Shown here: piece after piece, positions 40,562-53,185 of the stretch | Numbering within the stretch: position 1 is the stretch's first letter | Layout of the letters: each line of letters begins with the position of its first letter | Assembly: GCF_000151315.2 (NCBI RefSeq) | Contig: NW_011887303.1 | Coordinates: 10,001 to 74,000 of the forward strand | Source of the DNA: Capsaspora owczarzaki ATCC 30864 | Lineage: Eukaryota; Opisthokonta; Filasterea | DNA length: 64,000 bases | Direction of reading: 5' to 3' | Made by a program: the position numbers and the translations under genes | Notes under the pieces: model-generated | What the model was told of the DNA's origin: nothing | Database searches by the model: none | The model's input: only the letters and a program-made list of their open reading frames with translations

Positions 40562-43500
40562 TTAAAGCAACGCACCAATGTCACGAACCGGCTGATTGGC
40601 AGCCAAGTTGGTAAAGTAAGCGGCGAGACCTGCAAATCGGGGACGGGCCTGCGGGTTTTCTTCCCAGCACGATTGCACCATCGCATAGAGGTGGGGTGAG
40701 CAGTTTTCAGGTCGGACCAGACGCTTTCCATCGTCCAGATACGCAAGGACTTCGCGACCATTCATCGCCCCGTACGGCACAGCTCCGTACGAGAATGCTT
40801 CCCCTGCGTTTGCGTTTGCGTACGGATGGAAAACACGGTGGTGAATGCATGGAGGCTTCCAACCAATCGGTCGCAGACAACCACGGGCATGCAGTTTTGA
40901 CTTACAAGCCAGCACACCATAAGACCAGACGTCGCTTTGATGCGTAAACTTGCGATAGTTGAGACACTCGGGAGCCATCCACTGCAGCCAAAAAACAACC
41001 AAAAAAACCAAAACAAAACAAAAAAAAAAAAAAAACAAAAAACAAAACAAAAAACAAAACAAAAAAAAAAAAAACCCCCCACAACAACAACAAATGAAGG
41101 TATCAAAACACGCCATGCAGTGAGTAGTATGTGACAACAAACATCGTCCAGGCGGCCATCCACGTTACCTTCACTGGCAAACGTCCTTTGTGCTCCATGC
41201 GGTAGTAGTCCGTCTCCTGAGCCAACGCGCGGCTCAAGCCGAAATCGGAAATCTTGACGGTCAAGCCGTGTCCCACGAGACAGTTACGAGCCGCAATGTC
41301 GCGATGCACAAAGCGAATCGACTCAAGGTAGCCCAAACCCGATGCAACCTGCGCAAGGGTGTGGGCAAACTCGTTTTCGGTCCAGGCAATGTTCCTCTTC
41401 TTTGACTTTTTCAGCACGTCGCGCAGGTCGCCGTACGGCAGCAATTCAAGGACACAGAGATGCGGCTCAGCTTCCAGCAATGTGGCAATCGCTCGAACCA
41501 CATTCGGATGGTTGAACTGCGAAACCATGCGTGCCTCCTCGATAAACTCGTTGTGAGACTGCGGAGAGGCATCCGCCTGGATGGTCTTCACGGCTACTTC
41601 CAGGTCAGACTGCATGGGGTCGTGAAGCAGGTACTGTGCGTCGGTTGGGACCAATGCGCGCGGCAAGAGTCCCCGAAGCACAACGCCAAATGCGCCAGAA
41701 CCTAGTTTCTCGCCCAGAACAAGTCCGTTGCGTAAAGTTTGAGTGACCTTGGCCGCCGACATGTAAATTCGAGAGCCGGCATACTCGTACGGGTGGCTAT
41801 CACCTTGTTGGGGCGAAGCAGCATTGTCATAGGTGGATGACCTCTGCGGCGGCGCAGAAACATAGGCGTAAGCGCTGTCTGTTCCGCGCGATGAACTGAA
41901 GTTGGCAGAAGCATACTCTGGTTGAGGTGCTGCTCCCACCGCAGAATACAGCGGGTCTGTAGTCGAATTGGCGTAAATGTCGCTGGACGGGGTTCCGAGG
42001 GAGGTGGACCGCATCGGAAAGGTGTCGGTTTTGCCGGTGCTGATCGCGTGGGCTCGGTTGCGGCGTCGACGATAGAGCACAACCGCAACAATCAGTGCCA
42101 CAACGACAAGCACGCCAACGATTGCACCAATGACGCCTGTCGCGGACGAGGCCGAAGCATCCGGAGAGCGGTTGTTGGCAGCATCAGAAGCGGCAGAAGC
42201 AGAAGACGCCGAAGCGGCCGAAGCCCGAATGGGTGCCAAAGACGAGGAAACGATAGAAGCCGAGGCAGCGGATGCAGAAGATGCGGTCGCTCGAATTGGT
42301 GCTAAAGACTTGGAAACGACAGAAGCAGAGACAGCCGATGCAGAAGCTGCTGACGAGCGGAGGGACGCTAGAGACGTAGAAACGACAGACGCCAGAGTGG
42401 CAGCCGAGGTCGAGGCCGCAGATGCATAGCCCGCGGCCAAAGACGAAGCCGACGAGAGCGGAATGCAGCTTCCATTCATGGGGGTGAAGCCAGTGGAGCA
42501 GACAGTGCAGAGTGGCGTGCTCGAGCAGTAGAGACAGTTGTCACTGCAACACGAATCGTTCCCCGCCGCAAAGCAAGTCGCGCAGATCGAATGGCAAACT
42601 GTTCGAGATTACGAAGCAAAAAGGTGGCGGCGATGACAATGCTTGCAGTGAATAAACCAATTCAGCGCTCCGAACTTTTGAAAAACCAGATCGCGCCGAA
42701 CACGAGTCTTACCAGTGGGGTTGTTGACATTGCCAAAGGTGCTCGGAGGAGCGTTGGTGCTTCCAAACGCAGTAAAGTTGTTTTGACCTAGGTAGACAGA
42801 GCTCAGCATCGTTTGCCCCTGGAAGAGGCCAGGTGGCAGTGTCGTCAAACCATTGTTGGAAAGTCGCCTGCTCGTGACCCCAAGGCGTGACCCCAAGGCG
42901 CAATCCCAAGGTGGGCGATCGGTGAGAAATGCGGAAAAGTTTCAACCAAGTTTGGATTGCATTCTGCTTACAAGGTGGATAGCTCCACTCCGTTAAATGC
43001 ACCGGGTTCGATCCTTGTGAGTGTTGGCGTGGCAGTAAACGTCCTGAAAAGCAAGCAGATCAGTCATTTTGTGCTTTCGTTTGGCATGGGATCCAAGACA
43101 GCTCAAGTTCCGAGCGTCAAATCTTTACAGAGTCATATTCGAGAGCCCAGAAAAGGCATTGGCAGGGATGGTTGTCAAAGCAGATGCCTCCAATTTGCTG
43201 CACGCACAGAATCGTCGGTGAGTAGGATTGCAGAATCGATAAAATGATGAGCATGCAACGAAGACAGCCCGCTACGGTTGCGCACAAACTGATGGAGTTG
43301 GGTGCTCCTTGAAACAGATTCGCCGGAAGGGACTTGACTGAACTGGTGCGGATTGACCTGGAGATTGGGGAGAGGTTTAGGAGGCGCAACATAGGAACAG
43401 GAATGTTTGAGGTGAGCCATCGATGCCTCGATCATTGCGAAACAGTGAACGGAAAAAACTCTGGTTACACAACAACGTTCGGCGGCAGCCCACCGAACAT

Positions 43501-44602
43501 GCCAGCCGTCAAGCTTGTGATCCGAGTTCGATCAAGATACCTGTCGCCAAACATTAAGTGCACAACCAGTACATAGGTTCAACTGTACGCCAATTCTTAC
43601 AAGAAGGTCAGGGATGGGAGTCCATGAAATGCGTTTGCGACAACCGAGGTGAGTTTGGTGTCCGAGAGGTCGCTATTCCAAGGCCAACACAGAACGGCAC
43701 AACAGTTTGTGCCTTCGATTCAATTTTGGCTCAGTCTTTCAAAAGCGCAGTTCGTCTTACAGCACACTCAACGATGACATGCCGTTGAACTGCGATGCGA
43801 CCAACTCTTTCAGCTCACTCCCAGTGGCATACTCTTCGTAGCTCCCCAAATGCCTGTCGAACGCAGCGTGAGTAACGGCCGAATGAACGCAAGTCTCAAC
43901 AACAACAACAACAACAACGCGGACGGACAATGTGGTCACTGCAGACAATCCAGAGAACAGACCAGCAGCGAATTTCGTGACACGAATGCCCGCCAAGTTT
44001 CTGAGTGATACGATTGAAATGAGCGAGCTGAGACAACAGCGGGATTGCGATTCTCAACTGGTCGGACGTACAAAGTGTGGAGTGCGTCCAGATTTGCTCC
44101 AAAGGCACTCATTCCAATGGTGGTGATGGGGCAGTTCATCAAGGATCTAAAACCAAAACCGGATTGAGGTCGACCGTTTTGCAACAACTTACAACAACAA
44201 AACGCAAGGCAAAACATTGTCGGATTCGTTACATGGAAGTCAATCGGGTGAGCGAACTAAATGCGCTGTTCGGGATCGATGTAATGGCGGTGTTGGTCAG
44301 ATCTCTGCATGATTTGTGTGGGCGATCCCAGATAAAGGTGAGTCACCCACTGCAGGCTCACACAGGCTACAACTGCTGCAAATTTGTCAAAGTGCCACTG
44401 ACATGAGTTCGACGGTGGCAGGAATTCCCGTGGGGATTGAGGTCGTGGTGGCTGCCGGACAGCCGCTCACACTTTCGCTCGTGCACGTGGAACAAGCAGA
44501 GCAGGCGATGGCATTCGCGCCAAGTGGATGAGCAGCCAAAACCATGGCGCTGATGGCGAGCACAATGGCGAGCATGGGAATGCGAATTCGCATGCTAAAC
44601 AT
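40562..44602 (-). CDS. LRR receptor tyrosine kinase
   Basis: Single-pass receptor tyrosine kinase, 919 residues, 14 exons: 44602-44403, 44304-44233, 44146-44072, 44000-43929, 43841-43761, 43672-43601, 43540-43469, 43357-43286, 43197-43129, 43043-42972, 42867-42713, 42598-41169, 40981-40906, 40803-40562. Exon 1 holds a signal peptide (MRIRIPMLAIVLAISAMVLA) and a Cys-rich cap. Exons 2-11 each carry one LRR of about 24 residues, all phase 2. A cysteine box follows (CHSICATC, CCSDNCLYC), then a Ser/Ala stalk. The membrane span is near 491-513, ending YRRRRN. The juxtamembrane has two YxN motifs (IYANS, TYDNA), candidate GRB2-type sites. The kinase starts near 629 (GEKLGSGAFGVV) with VAVKTI, FVHRDIAARNCLV, ISDFGLSR, tandem YY in the activation loop and LPVKWMAPECL. 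All catalytic residues are present. ATG 44593 is an alternative start. Confidence 0.92.
42065..42135 (-). other. Predicted transmembrane segment of the receptor tyrosine kinase
   Basis: Encodes GVIGAIVGVLVVVALIVAVV followed by Tyr and four Arg, a textbook single span with a positive stop-transfer side facing the kinase. Confidence 0.9.
42180..42440 (-). repeat. Ser/Ala stalk with 22-residue internal repeats
   Basis: The extracellular stalk of the tyrosine kinase contains about three copies of a unit like SLAPIRATASSASAASAS, i.e. roughly 66-bp DNA repeats. It is probably rigid or O-glycosylated and sets distance between LRRs and membrane. Confidence 0.75.
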
Positions 44603-52029: not shown

Positions 52030-53185
52030 GCTAGCAATTCCCCGAAGCACATCAAGGTGAGCACACGTTTGCACTCGTTGGACAACTATCAAAATCAAAT
52101 CACACCCAGTCCTTCATATAGTGTTGACAGGCATGTTTGTTGTTGTTGCTGCTGGACGCGTTTGGCGTGGAAGGACGAGTTTGATATTTCAAAATTTCGT
52201 TGTTGGAGTTTTATTTTAAGGGGGATGGCCGTTTTGGTTTTTGTTGTTTTTGTGTTTTTCGGTTTGCTTATTTCGTTCTTGGAGGTTGCATCGTGTTTTG
52301 AAAAGCACCACAGGCCTCCCTCCCCACAATAGCAGAACCACTCTCCCACAACACTGACACCGACTCGACCACAAGCAGCATGTCATCCTCATCCTCCCCA
52401 TATTCGGCGCAAGGGCGAGCGCGAGGGTGAGCGCGAGGGGGAAAGAGTGAGAGCGAGGGAAAGAGAGTGAGAGCGAATGGCAACATGGGGTAAGTCTGCT
52501 CCCTTGAGAGCAGGGGCACGAACCCGCTGTGGCCAATTCTATCGCTCAGAACAACAACAAATCCATGAATGCCTGGAGTTTGCGCATGGTTGGGCGGAGA
52601 GCGACAACGAGGGAGGGATGGGGAGACAGCCGAGAGCAGAAAACAGAGAGGAGACGGAGGTGGTCATGCGCGTTCGCGTGCCACCCACATCCGCGTCCTG
52701 CGTTGCCAATCCAGGCAAGGTGGATGAAGCGCCGACGTAAAGTGGGAAAGCACACAAGACACGCAGTTCGACAGCATGCTTCGCAGAGGAGTCTGCTGCA
52801 ACGAATAAGCGGTTGATGGGAACAAAAGACAACTAAAAAGCAAGGGGGGGGGAGGAAAACAAACGGAAAAAACAAGAAAAAGGAAAAAAAGAAAAGGAAA
52901 AAAAAAAGCATCAGAAAAACACAAAATCAAAGAAAAACGAACGGGGCCCTCTCAGGGAACAGCGCGGGTCAACGGGGGGCGTAGAAGCGAGTGATAGAGC
53001 AGTGCAGACTACCTGGACGATGGCCGAGGCACTGCCGTGGGTACAGCAGATGGAAAACAGCACACAATGGCCATTAAAATAATAAAATAAAAAAAATAAA
53101 AAGTAATCAAGACCAAAACAATAAAAAAAAAAAAAGCCAAGAAAACGAAAATAGACTGGGACACACACTCTGTTCGTAGGGCGGG
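49785..53185 (-). repeat. Duplicated receptor cassette, copy B (GPS receptor gene)
   Basis: Counterpart of 42255-45525. Homology covers the promoter, exon 1, all LRR exons and introns, the cysteine box and the first part of the Ser/Ala stalk, and fades near 49790 where the proteins diverge. The (CAA)n at 51330-51366 is longer than in copy A. Confidence 0.9.
51330..51366. repeat. (CAA)n microsatellite in an LRR-gene intron
   Basis: About 12 units in copy B against 7 at the equivalent place in copy A (43897-43918). Confidence 0.95.

Follow-up and report, generated by a model that had tools for sequence, protein, structure and literature searches.

How do two neighbouring receptor genes come to carry nearly the same recognition head, together with its upstream region, on two signalling modules of different kinds? 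The question is raised by a 64,000-nucleotide stretch of the genome of Capsaspora owczarzaki ATCC 30864, a close unicellular relative of animals (contig NW_011887303.1; hereafter the window, C12:10001-74000 of the assembly). Two genes on its minus strand, A (40562-44593) and B (45913-52029), share an ectodomain of leucine-rich repeats (LRR), which continues in A into a tyrosine kinase and in B into a GPS-containing membrane module. B is best read as a young, intact, in-frame chimera of A and of a gene on contig C11, with both parents surviving in the same genome, formed probably in one event and followed by gene conversion in B and the insertion of a long terminal repeat (LTR) upstream of A; a probability of about 0.7 is assigned to this account as a whole. 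Genome-wide searches covered one 27.46-Mb C. owczarzaki assembly of 29 contigs, within which the genes were compared with one another, and the window was compared with itself by BLASTN. The species is borne out by published primers for the Capsaspora actin promoter and terminator (PMC9170242): both match exactly at a single locus, flanking an actin reading frame, and the terminator 22-mer has a further place on C10. Two coYki sequences of that paper have no match, and the coYki place is taken to be missing from the sequence searched. Genes A and B were modelled under phase constraint, with GT/AG splice sites and matching phases, and protein domains were sought by Pfam scans with E-value limits of 0.01 for whole B, 1 for a relative on contig C6 and most of the C11 protein, and 10 for the B tail and the last-exon frame.

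Two tails on one LRR head

Gene A (14 exons, 920 aa) has a splice model with consistent phases and a single terminal stop, matches to Pfam LRR_8 and PK_Tyr_Ser-Thr, and two hydrophobic segments only (residues 3-21 and 494-512), corresponding to a signal peptide and one transmembrane (TM) segment. The ectodomain (42459-44593, minus strand), encoded by exons 1-11 and the start of exon 12, comprises the signal peptide, an LRR N-cap, LRRs on phase-2 exons and a Cys box. It is followed by a Ser/Ala-rich stalk with internal repeats that reaches the TM segment (42135-42458, minus strand, approximate bounds), and the juxtamembrane stretch is rich in tyrosine (10 Tyr in 114 aa). The kinase domain (PF07714, E 2.1e-86) has its N-lobe and the loops HRDIAARN and DFGLS in exon 12 (42598-41169) and its C-lobe in exons 13-14, which span 40562-41168 (minus strand) together with the introns before and between them. 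GSGAFG, AVKT, HRDIAARN, DFGLS and APECL are all kept in A, and are what we take to be an intact set of five kinase catalytic motifs. By its predicted signal peptide, ectodomain, single TM segment and kinase domain, A is a receptor tyrosine kinase, in line with the first-pass annotation of this DNA, and its output is likely tyrosine phosphorylation. It belongs with the Capsaspora receptor tyrosine kinase expansion, being one of at least 193 kinase-domain matches in the genome, several of which have an LRR/Cys-box ectodomain of A's kind; B, in contrast, has no kinase and falls outside any kinome. A survey by Suga et al. in 2012 reportedly dealt with Capsaspora tyrosine kinases, going by its title.

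The two genes correspond through eleven exons and into the twelfth. Exon 1 encodes the signal peptide together with the N-cap. Each of the nine exons 2-10 (69-93 nt) encodes a single LRR between phase-2 introns, and exon 11 encodes the last LRR with the C-cap, for which the earlier count of ten one-LRR exons was a fair tally; exon 12 begins with a ten-cysteine box and continues into the Ser/Ala-rich stalk. In-frame skipping of the phase-2 LRR exons could occur in both genes, and regulated exon skipping in C. owczarzaki is reported to be enriched in protein kinase genes (PMC3870316).

Self-comparison of the window aligns 49790-52164 with 42313-44717 at 92.8% identity (2420 columns, E 0), and two weaker upstream blocks, 52465-52654 with 44931-45121 (82%) and 52910-53079 with 45208-45376 (87%), which places both copies of the ectodomain half where a tandem duplication had been proposed. 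Exons 1-11 are identical at 979 of 1015 aligned bases (96.5%) and introns 1-11 at 877/935 (93.8%), bearing out the common signal peptide, LRR exons with their introns, Cys box and stalk start, and the closest other relative of the A ectodomain reaches 62% identity among the matches listed. Within exon 12, the Cys-box part is 97-100% identical, after which successive 60-nt bins of the stalk give 85%, 78%, 65% and 40%, so that background is reached within approximately 240 nt. A sharp fall inside the stalk had been predicted for a base-by-base comparison, and A-like sequence indeed stops there, as expected if the stalk was the recombination joint.

The A-derived half of B (49798-53190, minus strand), delimited by the 92.8% block, the upstream blocks and the identity bins, takes in the upstream region along with the signal peptide, LRR exons and introns, Cys box and stalk start. 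Its counterpart beside A (44594-45530, minus strand) lies on the promoter and 5' untranslated side and is homologous to 52030-53190. The idea that the two genes have similar promoters holds to the extent that these regions are homologous; however, they are rearranged, the distal blocks are about 11% diverged and a solo LTR is present in the A copy only. The aligned bases differ at 31 of 291 positions in the two distal blocks and 8 of 120 beside the ATG, and the copies are set apart by a large indel. A piece of about 95 bp is inverted between them (44822-44913 versus 52353-52447), with GAGCGCGAG-type inverted repeats, seen by eye, at its edge, and a long GA microsatellite occupies 45066-45204 upstream of A, with other sequence at the counterpart in B. 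Further upstream of B, at 53378-53803, is a fragment named L1-like by eye that ends in a poly-A run. Part of this fragment (53378-53490) has six matches listed, of which five are opposite in orientation to the rest of their own copy, the pattern that a 5' inversion here would give, and one has no partner listed. This repeat was considered and rejected as a cause of the duplication, since it starts approximately 180 bp past the end of A-B homology and hence shows no direct link.

A second parent on contig C11

The 1228-aa tail of B has seven matches in the genome, at three places: B itself, C11:562895-566578, where identity is 99% over the full length, and C6:890563-895821, matched in pieces at 40-83% (protein searches). 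In DNA, identity between 45785-49743 and C11 is 98.9% over 3966 columns, end pieces extend to 45701 and 49797 at 84-95%, and the donor region is C11:562715-566866. The C11-derived half of B (45701-49797, minus strand, by alignment to C11) accordingly holds the remainder of the stalk, the Cys-rich region, the GPS (near 46920), the TM segments, the stop codon and approximately 212 nt of 3' flank. Splice model and alignments together give B 12 exons and 1725 aa, with an A-type LRR ectodomain and a C11-type Cys-rich/GPS/multi-TM tail. Because A-B homology ends where B-C11 homology begins, B is almost certainly a chimera of two parents, A and C11. Earlier thinking on domain shuffling was right on the tandem duplication of the ectodomain half, but lacked this second donor, and the joint actually runs from stalk to stalk.

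B and A differ at 37 of 1182 ectodomain bases, B and C11 at 29 of 3684 tail bases. Uniform recent duplication of a single gene is rejected, the tail having another source, and a collapsed repeat or misjoin is rejected on the differences from both A and C11. The first-pass annotation had raised the possibility of an assembly artefact, in the present terms a misjoin of the A ectodomain to the C11 tail. The comparison does rest on one assembly, and C. owczarzaki cells are reported to be possibly diploid (PMC9170242). However, besides the differences from both parents, A and B share a contig, the reading frame is kept across the joint and the last exon, of 4163 nt, is open; such an artefact is scarcely credible.

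The C11 gene (C11:562895-567265) encodes 1457 aa from a start at 567265, the first Met of a signal peptide held in common with the C6 gene. Its protein, which has no LRR, runs from the signal peptide (MRYSQLG...) through a stalk rich in Ser, Thr and Ala to the B-type tail, and the gene is open without introns across the part matching the B tail. The C6 gene (G000:C6:890551-896238, L049) is likewise a GPS gene without LRR, encoding 1896 aa with C11's signal peptide, and identity in DNA is 73-86%; it carries in addition extra Cys-rich units and very long Gly-Ser runs. No LRR match near the C11 or C6 gene was listed among the 142 matches of the genome search with the A ectodomain, and the searches with the A ectodomain and the B tail found no B-type GPS tail on any other LRR gene.

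In the B tail, a Cys-rich region leads to a GPS containing HLT, and four clear hydrophobic segments come next, the only clear ones after the signal peptide, with a fifth, weaker one recognised by eye. The GPS model (PF01825) matches the 1228-aa B tail at E 1.3e-7, C11 at 1.6e-7 and C6 at 5.1e-8, and the B motif retains four Cys and HLT. Scans of whole B (E up to 0.01) and of the complete last-exon frame (45916-50085, minus strand; E up to 10) do not list the model. Because the GPS motif is the same in all queries, composition filters in HMMER are suspected, perhaps reacting to the Cys-/Ser/Ala-rich start of the longer ones. The listing of GPS for the tail alone, and its loss once the Cys box and stalk stand in front, is a caution for the automatic annotation of such genes.

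Whether the tail is also polycystin-like, as had been suggested, is a narrower matter. A profile of its last 325 columns finds only polycystin-1 chains in PDB (three distinct sequences; E 0.098-0.11), a weak match over 82 positions that covers the second and third membrane segments, and when the GAIN-like part is included the best matches are adhesion G-protein-coupled receptors (GPCRs; ADGRL3, E 0.0012), with polycystin-1 falling to E 0.21-0.23. Pfam models for REJ, PLAT and six-TM channels, and for 7-TM receptors, are listed neither for the B tail (E up to 10) nor for C6 or most of C11 (E up to 1). With polycystin-1 and PKD1-like receptors the tail shares a GPS with HLT followed by membrane segments, and polycystin-1 is the sole PDB molecule matching its TM profile; unlike them, it has no REJ, PLAT or PKD channel model listed and ends after the four clear segments and the fifth by eye. 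With adhesion GPCRs it shares the GPS/GAIN C-terminal part, ADGRL3 being its best PDB sequence match, but no 7-TM model is listed for it and it has four clear hydrophobic segments, the fifth by eye. Of the earlier label the GPS part therefore stands, along with the weak match of two membrane segments, and, going by these profile matches, the tail is described here as a GPS module that weakly resembles polycystin-1 rather than as a polycystin.

A and C11 most likely keep the older architectures, with B derived, because the C11 and C6 tails occur without LRR and the top-identity kinase relatives of A carry LRR/Cys-box heads. The A-side comparison took 14 kinase-relative loci, representing 13 distinct genes, against the A ectodomain (flank being limited to about 1.5 kb at four of the loci) and left out seven further relatives with 67-72% kinase identity. 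An LRR/Cys-box match to the A ectodomain was found in six of the 13 (C9:989100, C7:292441, C5:740819, C2:922910, C1:3748014 and C2:2113956), and the first three of these have the highest kinase identities among the matches listed, 73-75% (75, 73 and 73) over approximately the first 200 residues. The other seven show no such match, among them the top-ranking relative by E-value, C8:438204 (55% identity). These seven would suit the reverse direction, in which an LRR and GPS gene like B was older and A took its ectodomain from B, C11 lost its LRRs, or both; identity is symmetric and lends that history no direct support. It is opposed by the absence of LRR from the C6 gene (73-86% in DNA), which has C11's signal peptide, by the LRR/Cys-box ectodomains of the three highest-identity kinase relatives, and by the size of the LRR/Cys-box family (142 matches) against the three places at which the B tail occurs, and is considered very unlikely.

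Joints and the course of events

Joint 1, the stalk-to-stalk switch from A-like to C11-like sequence, lies at 49790-49805 (minus strand), with the best breakpoint at 49797 by three-way alignment and breakpoint score. Both parents carry Ser/Ala codon runs in the same frame around this position, and B passes through it in frame, its last exon of 4163 nt being open throughout. At joint 2 (about 45690; 45687-45701, minus strand, by eye from alignments), the C11 3' flank meets the distal upstream region of A: C11 homology ends at approximately 45701, about 212 nt beyond the B stop, within some 10 nt of the A distal upstream homology.

The spacer beside joint 2 is occupied by a solo LTR of 138 bp in the A upstream region (45531-45668, no strand assigned; TG...CA), recognised by genome search and alignment. 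It is flanked by a 5-bp target duplication, GTTCG, at 45526-45530 and 45669-45673, and because only one GTTCG stands at the corresponding position in B, the insertion most likely followed the duplication. The repeat has 42 genome matches, itself included, and two copies adjoin frames resembling gypsy-type ones, by eye; the chromoviruses of C. owczarzaki are reported to make 5-bp duplications in all five families (PMC4007536). With the LTR removed in silico, A-B upstream homology extends by approximately 15-20 nt and is then followed by C11 sequence (by eye). The spacer had also been considered as a remnant of a lost kinase, which was rejected, 45531-45668 being a dispersed repeat with its own target duplication.

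Because the foreign 4.1 kb sits exactly between the tandem copies of the A 5' half, a single event with two template switches is proposed, and such a one-event history of B is thought fairly probable. A break or stalled fork in the A stalk would have been followed by a template switch into C11, at its similar run of Ser/Ala codons, and about 4.1 kb of C11 would have been copied, through the stop codon and 212 nt of flank. After a jump back to a point upstream of A, the A 5' half would have been present twice, its copies separated by a templated insertion. Gene conversion with C11 would afterwards have homogenised part of the B tail, and an LTR of chromovirus type would have inserted upstream of A.

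Complex duplications of the fork stalling and template switching (FoSTeS) or microhomology-mediated break-induced replication (MMBIR) type have templated insertions and short homology at their joints. B resembles them in its tandem duplicate, its foreign templated segment at the junction and its short joint homology, but differs in having given rise to a chimeric receptor gene with an open frame, in a unicellular holozoan. In young chimeric genes of the jingwei type, whose parents survive, the 5' and 3' parts are each nearly identical to a different parent. B likewise has two near-identical parental parts and a new domain combination; in contrast to such genes, it was joined at the DNA level in the Ser/Ala coding stalk of receptors with no retro step seen, and its A-side parent is adjacent, its C11 parent lying on a different contig. 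For the tail, which is one intronless exon with an L1-like fragment (named by eye) nearby, a retrocopy of C11 mRNA might be thought of. The C11 source is itself open without introns there, so that a loss of introns would not be visible; the copied segment ends without an A-run and begins inside the coding stalk, joined at a similar stretch, which makes a retrocopy highly improbable.

The two halves can be dated separately. Synonymous divergence (dS) between the A and B ectodomains is 0.045 (NG86; 0.036-0.039 by two other methods), and between the B and C11 tails it is 0.021 overall, with 0.004 in codons 1-650 and 0.042 in codons 651-1228. Four-fold sites differ at 1/390 in tail codons 1-650 and 11/300 in the distal tail (Fisher 7e-4, an optimistic value, the cut at codon 650 having been chosen after the binned tail differences were viewed). 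The ectodomain, with 10/218, compares with the distal tail at Fisher 0.66, and the same codon-650 cut applied to all sites and part of the stalk gives 11 versus 25 differences (Fisher 0.004). Because dS is alike outside the proximal tail (0.045 and 0.042, against 0.004 within it), one origin of both halves with a later conversion tract is favoured. The tract would comprise the stalk-proximal 650 tail codons (47650-49599, minus strand, approximate bounds, by dS and four-fold sites), which show 4 differences from C11 in 1950 nt and were likely homogenised with C11 by later gene conversion.

Several observations weigh against this account. Divergence is uneven, with 31/291 differences in the distal upstream region versus 58/935 in the introns (Fisher 0.014), and the proximal tail is much closer to C11 than a one-time model allows, so that such a model needs conversion or rate differences. 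The upstream excess may reflect faster evolution on the promoter side or partly homogenised ectodomains, and in the latter case a dS of about 0.04 would be a minimum age. Microhomology at joint 2 is approximately 3 nt (TCG), by eye, and the ectodomain ratio of nonsynonymous to synonymous divergence (dN/dS) is high, at 0.6-0.8 by three methods. The seven kinase relatives without an A-type ectodomain match and the seven left out of the comparison count on the same side.

The uneven upstream divergence would also suit an older duplication, and hence a history in two steps: tandem duplication of the whole LRR receptor tyrosine kinase gene, then replacement of the second copy's kinase half, the C11 tail being brought in by ectopic recombination or gene conversion within the stalk. 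B and C11 do seem to have undergone conversion. However, no remnant of the A kinase or 3' flank lies between the B tail and the A upstream region: 45669-45930 has no match to the A kinase half and 3' flank (39000-42300), and the A kinase half has none in 45000-54500, both at E up to 0.1. The replacement would moreover have to end exactly at the tandem junction, and synonymous divergence is alike in ectodomain and distal tail. Two steps are on balance unlikely, and a single event followed by conversion is preferred.

Consequences for B and the wider head family

B likely presents nearly A's LRR head on a GPS-cleavable membrane module, under an A-derived upstream region. Both genes may be expressed, B may be cleaved at its GPS, and the two receptors may bind a common ligand; that B signals, through a recognition head like A's, is given slightly less than an even chance. 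The ectodomain dN/dS fits relaxed or diversifying selection, and constraint on B could be weak. This value, together with the often short life of chimeric genes, would favour a B that is made but does not signal, as a decoy or a decaying duplicate. Such a B is nonetheless unlikely: all 1725 codons are open, splice sites are GT/AG and phases match, and the tail dN/dS against C11 is approximately 0.17, though this value also reflects constraint on C11.

The LRR/Cys-box head is already in use with more than one kind of tail, judging from its relatives in the genome. In the A-ectodomain search (142 matches; 106 of 263 candidates scored), 76 rows reached the Cys box at least partly, and 26 of these have a kinase match at most 4.5 kb downstream (82 rows of the kinase search used for pairing), representing at least 22 distinct kinase places; 26/76 is a lower bound, C-terminal fragments and weak rows having been excluded. 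Twelve loci were read, 11 of them among the 76 rows, yielding one kinase, ten short tyrosine-rich tails without kinase and one locus that is partly masked. The kinase-less receptors (L010, L012, L013, L014, L015, L017, L022, L025, L029 and L032) have a Ser/Ala stalk in nearly all cases (L025 has almost none), and their tails contain 7-8 Tyr in 130-143 aa (three counted), in motifs such as YEDV, YAEA and YATI. These receptors might serve the sister kinases as docking partners or as substrates. Around 102452-105013 of G000:C15 (L009), very long open frames, partly masked, hold LRR/Cys-box/stalk modules in series.

More tentatively, the Ser/Ala stalk may be a standing recombination joint, at which one LRR/Cys-box head family has repeatedly been joined to kinases, tyrosine-rich docking tails and GPS/multi-TM modules, with B as the youngest readable product of an ongoing tail exchange. 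On that reading, which is itself rather doubtful, recognition head and promoter would stay and the signalling end would be swapped; the likely later conversion suggests that the B and C11 loci are still exchanging DNA.

Chimeric genes and domain shuffling are well known. What is new here is a receptor chimera this young in a close relative of animals, put together within a low-complexity coding stalk and still showing both parents, both joints and a likely conversion tract; the high identity to both parents and the legible joints agree with the first impression of a recent, readable case. The diversity of animal receptors is usually put down to shuffling among ancient genes whose parents and joints are long erased. 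In B both parents, both joints, the frame, the divergence on each side and the likely conversion tract are legible, in a close unicellular relative of animals. The suggested route is one in which Ser/Ala coding stalks between head and membrane serve as the place of exchange, with head and promoter kept and the output changed. Since C. owczarzaki is reported to be amenable to transfection and gene targeting (PMC6001378; PMC9170242), whether two outputs are driven by one head can be put directly to the test. None of the titles and abstracts listed by literature searches on Capsaspora receptors, tyrosine kinases, chimeric genes, domain shuffling and GPS/polycystin proteins tells of gene B, which does not show its absence from print. 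Elsewhere in the window, 33900-35325 consists of imperfect tandem repeats approximately 74-80% alike, the offset of the longest self-BLASTN match being about 170 bp.

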